A model generated the notes under the pieces. That model did no database searches, was not told the DNA's origin, and was given only the letters and a program-made list of their open reading frames with translations. A stretch of DNA of 23,544 nucleotides from a virus: IMG/VR virus record IMGVR_UViG_3300027848_000096, positions 1-23,544 of that record. One strand, 5' to 3'. Positions 2,310 through 21,359 of the stretch are shown piece by piece; position 1 is the stretch's first letter; each line of letters opens with the position of its first letter. The translations under genes and the position numbers were made by a program.

Positions 2310-2683
2310 AACAGCGAATCAGCATCAAGCCAACAATCCTTAAAAAGTCCGAAGCACCCATCCAAAGACAATGTGTTGCTTGGTTGCGGATTCAACACCC
2401 ATCAACGCGAGGGCAGTTTTTCGAGGTCAATAACAACCCAAAGAACAAGATTGACGGAGTAAGGCGTAAGAAGATGGGAATGGTTGCAGGAGTGAGCGAC
2501 TTGATGCTACTCCGTAAAGATTTACCTCCGTTGTGTATTGAGATGAAAAACGCAAAAGGAACTCAATCGACAGCACAAAAGGAATGGCAAAAAGTAGCTG
2601 AATCATTTGGATGCGTGTATGTAATATGCCGAAGCTTGGATGAGTTTAAAAAGATAATTGAAATTAATTTGGCGGGGTATTAA
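2306..2683 (+). CDS. VRR-NUC domain nuclease
   Basis: A 125-aa single-domain nuclease of the VRR-NUC (PD-(D/E)XK) type. Visible motifs are an N-terminal E16-xxx-Q20 helix, the GVRRKKMGMVAGVSDLMLL core (51-69, acidic D65), and the catalytic E79-M-K81 in CIEMKNAKG, followed by the typical S-xx-Q-xx-W helix (STAQKEWQ). Such small stand-alone VRR-NUC proteins are common in phages, where they are thought to cut branched DNA during recombination or packaging. The start overlaps the stop of the helicase loader by 4 nt (ATGA), so the two are translationally coupled. It is the last gene before the promoter at 2668-2700, whose upstream half lies within its last codons. Confidence 0.9.
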   Translation: MKQRISIKPTILKKSEAPIQRQCVAWLRIQHPSTRGQFFEVNNNPKNKIDGVRRKKMGMVAGVSDLMLLRKDLPPLCIEMKNAKGTQSTAQKEWQKVAESFGCVYVICRSLDEFKKIIEINLAGY

Positions 2684-2700
2684 ATTAGTTTGTATATTTG
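2668..2700 (+). promoter_or_regulatory. Bacteroidota-type promoter for the Cys-rich paralogue pair
   Basis: TTTG (2668-2671), a 21-nt spacer, and TATATTTG (2693-2700) fit the Bacteroidota primary-sigma consensus (TTTG/TTG near -33, TAnnTTTG near -7). Between them lies GGTATTAAATTA (2678-2689), which recurs at the two minus-strand promoters at 17991-18014 and 18363-18389. The site overlaps the end of the nuclease gene and lies 38 nt upstream of the ATG at 2739. Confidence 0.75.
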
Positions 2701-2704
2701 TCCT

Positions 2705-2720
2705 GTTCCAACGAAGGAAC
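2705..2720 (+). promoter_or_regulatory. Leader hairpin or operator at the transcription start
   Basis: An inverted repeat GTTCC-aacgaa-GGAAC lies 4 nt after the -7 box, at or just after the expected transcript start. It precedes the A-rich leader ACTAAAAACAACA, which runs up to the ATG. It could be an mRNA 5' hairpin that stabilises the transcript, or a small operator. There is no T tract, so it is not a terminator. Confidence 0.45.
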
Positions 2721-2738
2721 GATACTAAAAACAACAAC

Positions 2739-3143
2739 ATGATGAACAGAGAGAATTTAAAACTAATGGCAGACCACATACGAAAAATTCCGCAGGAGGC
2801 GTTCGATATGGAGAGGTTTAGAGATGGGCAACTCATAACGCCCGAGTGTAATAGTATAGGATGCTCGGTTGGTCACTGTGTGGAGCTTGACCCGAACCCT
2901 GACGCAATTCCTAGATGGGAATGTGGGAGTATAAGTTTTGACATCTGGGCGGTAAACTTTACTGGTCTGAATAGCGGTCAGTCGCGATGGTGCTTTTCAG
3001 GAGACTGGATGCACACCGACAACACACCCAAAGGCGCGGCACTTCGGATTGAGTGGTTGTTAGAACATGGTCTTCCCGAAGATTGGGGAAGTCAAATGGA
3101 AGGTGATACGCCCCTATGTTACCGTAAATCAACAACAACATAA
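2739..3143 (+). CDS. Cys-rich hypothetical protein, copy 1 of a tandem pair
   Basis: A 134-aa soluble protein whose neighbour at 3143 is a clear paralogue (about 80 identical residues of 127 aligned, counted by eye). Conserved blocks are LMADH-x-R-x-IPQE, SIGC-x-VGHC, DPNPD-x-IPR, FTGLN, WCFS-x-DW and DNTPKGAALRIEWLL. Five cysteines are shared (those in PEC, IGC, GHC, WCF and LCY), so metal binding or a structural role is possible but not shown. The frame is open upstream to 2658, but that part covers the promoter and leader, so the ATG at 2739 is chosen. A second ATG follows immediately. It overlaps its paralogue by one base (TAATG). I cannot name a function. Confidence 0.85.
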   Translation: MMNRENLKLMADHIRKIPQEAFDMERFRDGQLITPECNSIGCSVGHCVELDPNPDAIPRWECGSISFDIWAVNFTGLNSGQSRWCFSGDWMHTDNTPKGAALRIEWLLEHGLPEDWGSQMEGDTPLCYRKSTTT

Positions 3144-3535
3144 TGAAAAGAAAGAACCTACAGTTAATGGCAGACCATCTACGAACAATTCCACAGGAGT
3201 TGTTTGATATGGAGGGCTACCGAAAAGGTCAAGACGTAACGATTAAATGTGATAGCATTGGATGTGCCGTGGGTCATTGCCCCGTAATCGACCCTAATCC
3301 TGATAAGATTCCTAGATGTGAAGACGGGGATATAGATTATATGGGGTGGTCTATGGCTTTTACTGGTCTGAATGATGCCGAGTGGGATTGGTGCTTTAGT
3401 ACTGATTGGACGGAAGTTGACAACACACCCAAAGGCGCAGCGCTTCGCATTGAATGGCTACTTAGTCACGGGTTGCCAAAAGATTGGCATGAACAGTTGG
3501 CAGGAATAACGCCCCCGTGTTACCTGATAAAGTGA
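3143..3535 (+). CDS. Cys-rich hypothetical protein, copy 2 of a tandem pair
   Basis: A 130-aa paralogue of the preceding gene, with the same block order (LMADH-x-R-x-IPQE, SIGCAVGHC, DPNPDKIPR, FTGLN, WCFS, DNTPKGAALRIEWLL) and the same five cysteines. It is expressed from the same promoter by a TAATG stop/start overlap. The most conserved part, GDNTPKGAALR-like, is nearly identical in DNA as well (GACAACACACCCAAAGGCGC at 3018-3037 and 3419-3438). The N-terminus and the stretch after FTGLN differ most (GLNSGQSR versus GLNDAEWD), which may mark a surface that has diverged in binding. Function unknown. Keeping both copies in a compact genome suggests different or dosage-dependent roles. Confidence 0.85.
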   Translation: MKRKNLQLMADHLRTIPQELFDMEGYRKGQDVTIKCDSIGCAVGHCPVIDPNPDKIPRCEDGDIDYMGWSMAFTGLNDAEWDWCFSTDWTEVDNTPKGAALRIEWLLSHGLPKDWHEQLAGITPPCYLIK

Positions 3536-4778: not shown

Positions 4779-4931
4779 ATGGACACTCATTTGCAGCTGA
4801 CCCTTGAACAAGCCACAAATCTTTACACCTTTTCAACGTCAAGGGGGATTTGGTACAAAGATGTTTATGGTGACGGCTCAATAATGCTACCTATGTTGAG
4901 GGAACAAACCGATACATTTAAATTAAACTAA
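4779..4931 (+). CDS. Hypothetical protein, 50 aa
   Basis: A 50-codon frame (MDTHLQLTLEQATNLYTFST, later GDGSIMLPMLREQT) fills an otherwise empty gap of 180 bases. Its TAA stop forms the first bases of the TAACTTTG box before the next gene. It reads as a soluble alpha/beta peptide without low complexity. It is below the usual ORF length limit, so homologues may be unannotated. Function unknown. Confidence 0.55.
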   Translation: MDTHLQLTLEQATNLYTFSTSRGIWYKDVYGDGSIMLPMLREQTDTFKLN

Positions 4932-4936
4932 CTTTG
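4929..4936 (+). promoter_or_regulatory. TAACTTTG -7-like box upstream of the 4942 gene
   Basis: TAACTTTG lies 5 nt before the ATG at 4942, inside the sequence TAAACTAACTTTG that recurs before the gene at 5157. The region upstream (TTTAAATTAAAC) is AT-rich, but no TTG lies at the usual distance, so promoter activity is uncertain. Confidence 0.35.
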
Positions 4937-4941
4937 AAGAA

Positions 4942-5142
4942 ATGAGTTGTCCAGCTACAAAAAGAAACAAGGTATATATACAATTAGAGGCAGCCGAAGT
5001 ATACGCCGACACGGGCGAATGTCGCGTTACTATTTCGATAAGCCTAACAACCACCAAGCAAAGGACAGAACGTCTTTACGATGAACCGATAACCGCACAA
5101 GATGTTATCGGATTGCTGATTGATTGCGATGAAGCACTTTAA
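4942..5142 (+). CDS. Hypothetical protein, 66 aa
   Basis: A short soluble protein that alternates in beta style (KVYIQLEAAEVYADTGECRV, then TISISLTTTKQRTERLY) and ends in a helix (AQDVIGLLIDCDEAL). Three cysteines, none in a CxxC pair. No recognisable family. It starts 10 nt after the 50-aa gene and is followed by the methyltransferase gene after a 14-nt gap containing a promoter-like box. Confidence 0.7.
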   Translation: MSCPATKRNKVYIQLEAAEVYADTGECRVTISISLTTTKQRTERLYDEPITAQDVIGLLIDCDEAL

Positions 5143-5152
5143 ACTAACTTTG
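5124..5152 (+). promoter_or_regulatory. Promoter-like site for the methyltransferase gene
   Basis: TTG (5124-5126), an 18-nt spacer and TAACTTTG (5145-5152) fit the Bacteroidota promoter pattern. The ATG at 5157 follows after only 4 nt (GAAA), so a transcript from here would have almost no leader. The 13-mer TAAACTAACTTTG is identical to that upstream of the 4942 gene. Confidence 0.45.
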
Positions 5153-5156
5153 GAAA

Positions 5157-6383
5157 ATGCAGAACAAAACTGAATATAGGAAACTTTCAGACCTCAAAAA
5201 GCTACCAAACAACCCTAGGACAATTAAGACAGATTCGTTCGAGAAGCTTTGCGAATCGTTGAAGAACAGCCCCGACTACTTTGAGGCGCGCCCGTTGATA
5301 CTTTCAGACCGCACGGGTGAACTGATTGTGATTGCAGGAAACCAACGCTATGAAGCCGCAAATGCAAACGGGTCGAAGGAAGCGCCGACCTACCTGTTGA
5401 GCGGATTGACCGAAGAAAGGGAACGCGAGATAATTATTCGTGACAATGTTAACAATGGAACTTGGGACTGGAACATTATAGCGAATGAGTGGGATGCCGA
5501 ACAGGTTGCGGAGTGGGGCTTGGAGATTCCTGACTTTAACACCGAGACATTAGAGGCAGAGGAAGATGACTTTGATACAACACCGCCAGAGATACCGATA
5601 ACAGTTTTAGGAGACCTTTACGAGATTGGGGAGCATCGTTTGTTGTGTGGGGATAGTACTTGTAGTGACACGGTTGCAAAGTTAATGAATGGAGAGAAAG
5701 CGGACATGGTGTTTACCGACCCGCCTTATAATTTAGGAGAAATAATTAAAGGGGATGCTTTTATTACTGAAAACAAAAGGAAAATAGAGCAGCAAAGTTG
5801 GGATAAAGGGTTTAACGTAAAGGATTCTGTTTTAATTGCAGACCTGTTTACAAAGAAAGATTCTTCATGCTATTTTTTTACAAGCCAATACTTATTTGGT
5901 GATATTGTTGAAGTAGCAAAAACATTTTCCGAAATGGTTCAGTTTTGCGTGTGGATTAAAAACAATCCACAGCCAAATATGGGAAAACGATACTATACTC
6001 AAAGCGTTGAACTATGTGTTTTTTTCACAAAAGGGAAGCACGTTTTTAATTTTACAGAACAGGGGCATGAGTATAATTTTTGGAATATAAATAAAGAAAA
6101 ACATACTACAGAACACCCAACCGAAAAGCCAGTAAACGTATCAAGCCACGCAATAATAAAATCAAGTCATGTAAGCGCTTTAATACTTGACTTATTTTTC
6201 GGCTCAGGCTCAACAATGGTAGCATCACACCAATTAAAGCGAAAATGTTACGGCATGGAATTAGACCCAAAGTACTGCGATGTAATTGTAAACCGAATGA
6301 GAAAGCTCGACCCGACCCTAGTGATTAAACGCAACGGGGAGGTGGTAATTGAAACAGACGAACAACAGGTGAATAACAGGTAG
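5157..6383 (+). CDS. ParB-like domain fused to a beta-class DNA methyltransferase
   Basis: The 408-aa protein begins with a ParB/sulfiredoxin-like domain (about residues 8-110: SDLKKLPNNPRTI, then VIAGNQRYEAANANG near 58-72). A DNA methyltransferase follows (about 145-400) with DPPY at 188-191 and the AdoMet-binding FGSGST at 348-353. DPPY before FGSGS is the order of beta-class enzymes and DPPY favours N6-adenine methylation. Phage fusions of this kind probably methylate phage DNA to resist host restriction. No restriction endonuclease gene lies beside it. The part between the two motifs (about 5740-6180, the target-recognition region) is about 32% GC by hand count, against about 50% on the 5' side, which suggests exchange of that segment. 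The start is the ATG after TAACTTTG. Confidence 0.92.
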   Translation: MQNKTEYRKLSDLKKLPNNPRTIKTDSFEKLCESLKNSPDYFEARPLILSDRTGELIVIAGNQRYEAANANGSKEAPTYLLSGLTEEREREIIIRDNVNNGTWDWNIIANEWDAEQVAEWGLEIPDFNTETLEAEEDDFDTTPPEIPITVLGDLYEIGEHRLLCGDSTCSDTVAKLMNGEKADMVFTDPPYNLGEIIKGDAFITENKRKIEQQSWDKGFNVKDSVLIADLFTKKDSSCYFFTSQYLFGDIVEVAKTFSEMVQFCVWIKNNPQPNMGKRYYTQSVELCVFFTKGKHVFNFTEQGHEYNFWNINKEKHTTEHPTEKPVNVSSHAIIKSSHVSALILDLFFGSGSTMVASHQLKRKCYGMELDPKYCDVIVNRMRKLDPTLVIKRNGEVVIETDEQQVNNR

Positions 6384-17525: not shown

Positions 17526-17556
17526 TAAAAAAGCCGCTACATTTCTGCAACGGCTT
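17525..17556 (-). terminator. Terminator between convergent units
   Basis: AAGCCG (17531-17536) pairs with CGGCTT (17551-17556) across a 14-nt loop with two further possible pairs. On the minus strand the stem is followed by TTTTTTATTA, so it best serves the minus-strand genes. On the plus strand only CTTATT follows, a weak terminator for the tail operon. Confidence 0.65.
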
Positions 17557-17970: not shown

Positions 17971-17990
17971 GGTGTTGTTTTTAGTTCACC

Positions 17991-18014
17991 CAAAGATAGG
18001 ATTAATTTAATACC
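17991..18014 (-). promoter_or_regulatory. Minus-strand promoter for the 17970 gene
   Basis: On the minus strand this reads GGTATTAAATTA, ATCC, TATCTTTG. TATCTTTG fits the TAnnTTTG -7 box and the upstream block recurs at 2678-2689 (+) and 18376-18387 (-). It is followed by GGTGA and the leader ACTAAAAACAACACC up to the ATG. The -33 TTG is not obvious. Confidence 0.6.
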
Positions 18015-18316: not shown

Positions 18317-18362
18317 AATTTTGTTGTTTTAGTGCTTGGGGTTATTCCCTTGCTTCTGATGC

Positions 18363-18389
18363 CAAAGATATACATTAATTTAATACCCC
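18363..18389 (-). promoter_or_regulatory. Minus-strand promoter for the 18316 gene
   Basis: On the minus strand it reads GGGGTATTAAATTA, then ATGTA, then TATCTTTG. The block and spacing equal those of the plus promoter at 2676-2700. The leader, about 46 nt, contains an imperfect hairpin (GC-AA-GGG...CCC-AA-GC) and then ACTAAAACAACA before the start codon at 18316. Confidence 0.65.
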
Positions 18390-18470
18390 AACAAATTAAT
18401 TTCATTTATTTTCAGTTCACCTAAAATACCACAGATACTACAAATTACCGATAGTAAACAAGAAACAACC

Positions 18471-21293: not shown

Positions 21294-21315
21294 GCTAATA
21301 CGACACATTGAAAGG

Positions 21316-21350
21316 AGCGGCAACTTGATATTCATGTTGCCGCTTTTTTT
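21316..21350 (+). terminator. Strong Rho-independent terminator after the capsid unit
   Basis: AGCGGCAAC (21316-21324) and GTTGCCGCT (21336-21344) form a perfect 9-bp stem with an 11-nt loop, followed by seven Ts (21344-21350). It ends the capsid-rich transcript and separates it from the portal genes. Confidence 0.9.
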
Positions 21351-21351
21351 G

Positions 21352-21359
21352 TAAATTTG
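21352..21359 (+). promoter_or_regulatory. TAAATTTG -7-like box directly after the terminator
   Basis: TAAATTTG fits TAnnTTTG and begins 2 nt after the terminator T tract, ending 4 nt before the ATG at 21364. A TTG at 21325-21327 is 24 nt upstream and lies in the hairpin loop, so the -33 element is weak. If active, the portal unit would restart here with an almost leaderless message. Confidence 0.4.

Follow-up and report, generated by a model that had tools for sequence, protein, structure and literature searches.

The DNA analysed here, referred to as the window, is the complete 23,544-base virus record IMGVR_UViG_3300027848_000096, and its gene calls are open reading frames (ORFs) known here from the sequence alone. 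The terminase of this phage shares 49% identity with those of Flavobacterium psychrophilum phages, and its portal protein is related to the portals of Bacteroides and Cellulophaga phages. Therefore, the host most likely belongs to the Bacteroidota. A second contig (L062; 18,779 bases) is 100% identical to the window over 18,253 bases; it represents the same phage and hence lends no independent support.

Two groups of small genes are of interest. On the plus strand, a Cys-rich accessory gene (2739..3143; 134 aa) is followed by its tandem paralogue (3143..3535; 130 aa, 62% identity), the repeat already beginning within the leader (2730/3131). A gene of the DnaA-type HTH is located just downstream of this unit. 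A match for the first gene was sought in Pfam, PHROG and NCBIfam, but none was found, and no family model covers the pair (2739-3535). Distant relatives of the pair occur in large phages, and the Chryseobacterium phages OR050627 and OR513085 have five matching places each. The second group is an island on the minus strand, amid the plus-strand late genes. It consists of the orphan gene P0003 (18017..18316; 99 aa) and P0002 (17584..17970; 128 aa), the latter with an N-terminal match to phrog_34898, a family of unknown function. A predicted terminator follows on the same strand (17531..17556; an 11-bp stem and then a T run, fold of -16.3 kcal/mol). Searching IMG/VR with both island proteins did not reveal relatives outside the same phage, P0003 matching its own contig only, and a search of 396 Bacteroidota genomes with P0003 and the Cys-rich pair, performed without a positive control, found none. 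We rejected P0003 as a candidate repressor, since a family match was absent and its single-sequence structure model (pLDDT 42) was uninformative. Both groups are small accessory genes set apart from the structural operon.

The initial annotation had claimed one promoter module in front of three units, which may be expressed jointly and separately from the late genes. The pattern GGTATTAAATTA-N4-6-TAnnTTTG indeed occurs exactly three times in the window: ahead of the Cys-rich pair (site A; 2676-2700, plus strand), ahead of P0003 (site B; 18363-18387, minus strand) and ahead of P0002 (site C; 17991-18014, minus strand). It is exact with N5 in A and B and with N4 in C, which is one base shorter. 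The coordinates thus agree with the proposed equal spacing of A and B including a leading GGGG, and with the shorter form of C; only the start of the block in A had to be corrected, from 2678 to 2676. Promoter A (2651..2700) comprises a -33 TTTG (2668-2671), GGGG (2674-2677), the block GGTATTAAATTA (2676-2687) and the -7 box TATATTTG (2693-2700), and overlaps the last VRR-NUC codons. In promoter B (18363..18412), the corresponding parts are TTTG at 18395-18392, GGGG at 18389-18386, the block at 18387-18376 and the -7 box TATCTTTG at 18370-18363. Both were delimited by the A/B repeat and by alignment with each other and with a related phage, L066. Promoter C (17991..18014) begins directly past the P0003 stop codon and carries GGTATTAAATTA at 18014-18003 and the -7 box TATCTTTG at 17998-17991. 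A and B each form a full sigma-ABfr promoter, TTTG-N21-TATNTTTG, with GAAATTAA upstream of the TTTG. This TTTG had been overlooked before. Because it lies 21 nt ahead of the -7 box, GGTATTAAATTA fills the -33/-7 spacer, covering -29 to -18 in A and B and sitting one base nearer the -7 box in C. A search for a -33 TTG upstream of the -7 box of C did not find one. Across 79 loci of related phages, the -33 TTG was most enriched at a distance of N21 from the box (16% of sites).

Shuffled versions of the window gave 0.04 pattern matches at up to three mismatches, and no shuffle reached three sites. A general repeat search, which was independent of the pattern, placed A/B first among all inverted repeats in the window (84% identity over 50 nt, 2651-2700/18363-18412; BLAST E = 9e-9). 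When the 19,666 pairs of boxes lying within one genome of the phage group are ranked by similarity, A and B come first, agreeing at 28 of 32 positions; the next pair reaches 24. Over 42 positions they agree at 35, the similarity extending 17 nt upstream of the -33 element, which is more than for any further pair in these related phages (849 kb). The similarity stops at the -7 box on one side and at 2651/18412, about -54, on the other. Since it is confined to about -54 to -5, the stretch that was copied or conserved corresponds to the promoter. The frames read EINLAGY (A) and EINLLGY (B), each followed by a stop, and a longer duplication that had carried the VRR-NUC 3' end into B was considered. 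It was rejected, since the similarity does not continue past these 50 nt: shuffles did as well in a fraction of 0.72, and for the peptide the value was 0.16. C shares 14 nt exactly with B (GGTATTAAATTAAT), comprising the spacer block and the -7 box only.

Sigma-ABfr promoters have been mapped in Flavobacterium johnsoniae, F. psychrophilum and Bacteroides thetaiotaomicron (PMC6847099, PMC9723704, PMC7366714). In F. johnsoniae, the -7 box TAHHTTTG occupies -12 to -5, the -33 motif is weak, and two AT-rich motifs, with their centres at -18 and -28, stand out more than the -33 motif does (PMC6847099). All three sites have this -7 box, without G at the two middle positions, and the assignment to the known Bacteroidota type was therefore correct. 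The three sites are related, and their promoter-like nature is borne out as well. The block itself had been placed outside the known consensus, which is true in part: an AT-rich tract at -29 to -18 is to be expected from the published motifs, with TATTAAATTA occupying -27 to -18 of both A and B, and the peculiarity is confined to the GGGG and the precise letters. A scan with the sigma-70 consensus remained at chance level.

The exact block is rare. All pattern scans required exact matches, and together with the TATNTTTG form of the box it was found in 18 stretches of mixed taxa among about 85,000 genomes, so it is not a common feature upstream of host genes. The Chitinophagales and Bacteroidales matches (L050, L054) were set aside, as they share TATTGCAAGGTATTAAATTA and apparently belong to a different promoter type. 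The idea that the exact block is a promoter element of wide occurrence was likewise dropped, since IMG/VR yielded 37 stretches versus 28 for a shuffled control of the same composition, most of the 37 being in coding DNA. As a warning for such searches, many of the viral matches proved to be a single motif of coding DNA, GIKLIHIFEDEW, within phage ORFs (L009, L010, L013, L015, L016, L019, L022, L024-L026, L029, L037). In Arenibacter (L051, L057, L058), a P-II-like gene starting with MKKIEAIIRKSKFDDV is preceded by a promoter with GGGGGGTATTAAATTAATATATATTTTTG that is conserved in three species.

Of the TAHHTTTG sites that lie outside genes in the window, A, B and C alone leave room for a real leader; three other extragenic boxes (4929, 5145 and 21352, all plus strand) lie 4-5 nt before an ATG. 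Two of these are AAACTAACTTTG sites (4929-4944 and 5145-5159), the second of which precedes a ParB/methyltransferase-type gene, and AAACTAACTTTG is kept in relatives (L064 at 296, L066 at 4909). If these sites are -7 boxes, their transcripts would be leaderless. At 21310-21352, a strong hairpin resembling a terminator (-23.4 kcal/mol) is followed by a T run and then immediately by TAAATTTG, with the ATG 4 nt on.

Transcripts start 4-5 nt past the -7 box in F. johnsoniae (PMC6847099), and by this rule starts are predicted at 2705 (plus strand), 18358 and 17986 (both minus strand). The predicted leader of A (2705..2738) opens with a hairpin, GTTCC-AACGAA-GGAAC (2705-2720), followed by ACTAAAAACAACAAC. 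In the predicted leader of B (18317..18358), a hairpin (18353-18334) is followed by ACTAAAACAACA (18333-18322). The predicted 16-nt leader of C (17971..17986; AACTAAAAACAACACC) is unstructured, and folding did not reveal a hairpin. Two of the three sites therefore carry a hairpin near the predicted 5' end, as had been stated (A: -6.6 kcal/mol, z -4.9; B: -6.4 kcal/mol, z -2.5). The leaders of A and C are 95% identical over 19 nt (ACTAAAAACAACAACATGA and ACTAAAAACAACACCATGA); B carries the shorter ACTAAAACAACA. Adenines at -3, -6, -12 and -13 mark the start-codon context in F. johnsoniae (PMC6847099), and our leaders are A-rich with an A at -3 (A, AACATG; C, ACCATG; B, ATTATG). Leader-like words also precede other genes of the window phage and of L066. 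A- and C-rich leaders are a general start-codon context in the phylum, but the identity between the leaders of A and C exceeds it.

The comparative evidence bears on the A locus, no informative relative extending over 17.5-18.4 kb, and comes from one such relative, L066, whose terminase is 80% identical to that of the window phage. Its segment ATAAATGAAAATAAATTGCACGCGTATTAAGTAAATACTTATATTTA is located downstream of a DnaC-like gene, matching the locus of A, and in ungapped alignment upstream of the box it agrees with B at 31 and with A at 28 of 42 positions. Among 2050 box sites in the 849 kb of this phage group, A, B and the L066 site are each other's best two partners (A: B, then L066; B: A, then L066; L066: B, then A), the third-best match of each reaching only 24-25 of 42. 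The register TTG-N5-GTATTAA-N8-9-TAHHTTT was present at three sites, versus a mean of 0.06 for permuted 7-mers. The -7 box of L066 is TATATTTA, and the right half of its spacer block is altered (GTATTAAGTAAATA). A diverged relative has retained promoter and spacer tract at the corresponding locus. The gene behind them is not: L066 has a 58-aa ORF where the window has the Cys-rich pair, which is absent from L066 at this locus. This contradicts the expectation of conservation upstream of only these gene families. Since the same promoter precedes different genes, it is probably older than the present one. We conclude from these alignments that an old phage promoter has probably been retained while its gene changed, and that a copy was probably placed before the minus-strand island in the late region.

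Similar promoters occur in other phages. BLAST detected GTATTAAAATAGTTTGTATATTTGT in the divergent early region of the Flavobacterium phages Muminvirus and Lillamyvirus (e.g., filifjonk9-1, mumin6-1, morran9-1). With a single difference from A in 25 positions, it is in the same register and is followed by small early-region genes, but it lacks a TTG 20-22 nt before the -7 box and the GGGG, precedes other genes, and is present as a single copy in filifjonk9-1. In Muminvirus, the GTATTAAAATAGTTTGTATATTTG promoter precedes a 70-aa gene with weak Cro-like matches. A control scan led by chance to a repeated module, TTTGGTGGATTAAATTATTNNCTTTAACTTTG, on contigs of 70-105 kb (L180, L182, L188, L191, L194, L195, L198, L201, L203, L206) from phages related to those of Porphyromonas, Bacteroides and Riemerella. 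Up to two to three near-identical copies lie tens of kb apart before different genes. Like A and B, the module runs from TTTGGYGG through ATTAAATTA to TAnnTTTG and recurs at distant places in front of different genes; unlike them, it has a spacer of 20 instead of 21 and the -7 box TAACTTTG, and it belongs to a different phage group. A pattern spanning both forms matched 22 stretches in viral contigs. Several unrelated promoters showed TTTGGYGG although two letters were free in the pattern; the two unselected letters after TTTG were mostly GT or GC, and the spacing was mostly 20. In 396 Bacteroidota genomes, TTTGNNGGN{0,3}ATTAAATTAN{4,8}TANNTTTG gave 0 matches and its control 1, which is too few for a claim of phage specificity. 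In related phages, a TATTAAAA-type promoter (L084 at 5534, L087 at 2291, L090 at 5159, L093 at 6032, L095 at 6490) is followed by a conserved leader starting with ACAACCGCCAAAG and a possible hairpin (CCGCCAAAG/CTTGGCGG).

We consider it probable that A, B and C are ordinary promoters of the host primary sigma factor (sigma-ABfr) which are reused before accessory genes, A and B being copies of one ancestral promoter and C a partial or decayed form. Three observations do not sit easily with this reading. The sharing of GGGG, GAAATTAA and the block between A and B exceeds what sigma-factor contacts need, the sole informative relative has TATATTTA as its -7 box, and C keeps the exact 12-mer without the -33 TTG, which would fit a protein-binding site equally well. 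A specific binding protein is therefore possible, and so is co-regulation of the three units by a phage factor. Such a regulator would bind GGTATTAAATTA, along with a second box, AAATTAATTTG, that A and B have 22 nt further upstream, and would switch the three units jointly. The identity of the 12-mer at three sites with differing flanks would fit, as would its retention in C, the AAATTAATTTG/AAATTAGTTTG pair 22 nt apart in A, the DnaA-type HTH gene just downstream of the A unit, and the Cro-like matches behind the Muminvirus promoter. However, this operator is putative and lacks a recognised repressor or activator as its binder, P0003 having no usable family or fold; furthermore, the tract falls at positions already known to be AT-rich in promoters, and its right half is changed in L066. 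We regard joint switching of this kind as rather unlikely. The wider proposal, in which GGGGTATTAAATTA and the upstream AAATTAATTTG form a phage-specific spacer control element for one scattered accessory-gene regulon under a phage regulator, with the TTTGGYGG-ATTAAATTA modules following the same scheme, appears unlikely.

The likeness of the sites might also reflect polymerase preference rather than descent, if strong Bacteroidota phage promoters favour a GG-ATTAAATTA spacer. TTTGGYGG-(N0-3)-ATTAAATTA-N-TAnnTTTG is indeed found in unrelated Bacteroidota phages, with the bias of the free letters and of the spacing described above, and Muminvirus has GTATTAAAATAGTTTGTATATTTG. But the 35 of 42 identities of A and B exceed those of any other pair in the related phages, and TATTAA is not notable in a host sample (2 of 169 boxes), so that we find convergence very unlikely. 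Finally, the common segment could be a recombination site for gene cassettes with a secondary promoter role, given that window and L066 have this segment in common but differ in the genes that follow it. The limits of similarity, however, are those of the promoter, and a search for an integrase site, inverted ends and recurrence at other gene borders did not find any of these. This explanation is highly improbable.

Taking the sites as reused sigma-ABfr promoters, the ancestral form would have been a -33 TTTG, a 21-nt spacer with GGGGTATTAAATTA and a -7 TATNTTTG, probably located downstream of a dnaC-like gene, where L066 appears to retain it. In the window phage, this ancestral place would drive the Cys-rich pair, and the second copy would front the two-gene island with its terminator, interrupting the late operon in the manner of a moron. 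Host RNA polymerase would bind the -33 and -7 elements, assisted by the AT-rich -28/-18 tract as in other Flavobacterium promoters. Transcription would start about 5 nt past the box, the A-rich leader, free of a Shine-Dalgarno sequence, would load the ribosome, and the 5'-proximal hairpins of A and B may protect the messenger. To our knowledge, promoters of Bacteroidota phages have been little mapped, and we know of few expression tools for such hosts. A promoter that stays while its gene is exchanged, and that recurs before a minus-strand island among the late genes, illustrates a way in which accessory genes may plug into a phage programme. The -33/spacer/-7 form TTTGGYGG-ATTAAATTA-TAnnTTTG, present also in several other Bacteroidota phages, offers a candidate strong promoter that can be put to the test.

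Phage morons are accessory genes that bring along a promoter and a terminator. The P0003-P0002 island shares these features as predictions, with promoters B and C and the terminator, and lies inside the late region out of register with the surrounding operon; its likeness to a moron derives from promoters, terminator and strand, all read from sequence. Compared with mapped sigma-ABfr promoters, the three sites have the same -7 TAHHTTTG, the AT-rich -18/-28 region and a short A-rich leader without Shine-Dalgarno sequence, and A and B in addition the -33 TTTG. They differ in that GGGGTATTAAATTA is near-identical between the copies and GTATTAA is kept between phages, and in that C lacks the -33 TTG. 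Taken together, the promoter family looks like one already known in kind, and what sets it apart appears to be the degree of preservation and the reuse rather than a new switch.
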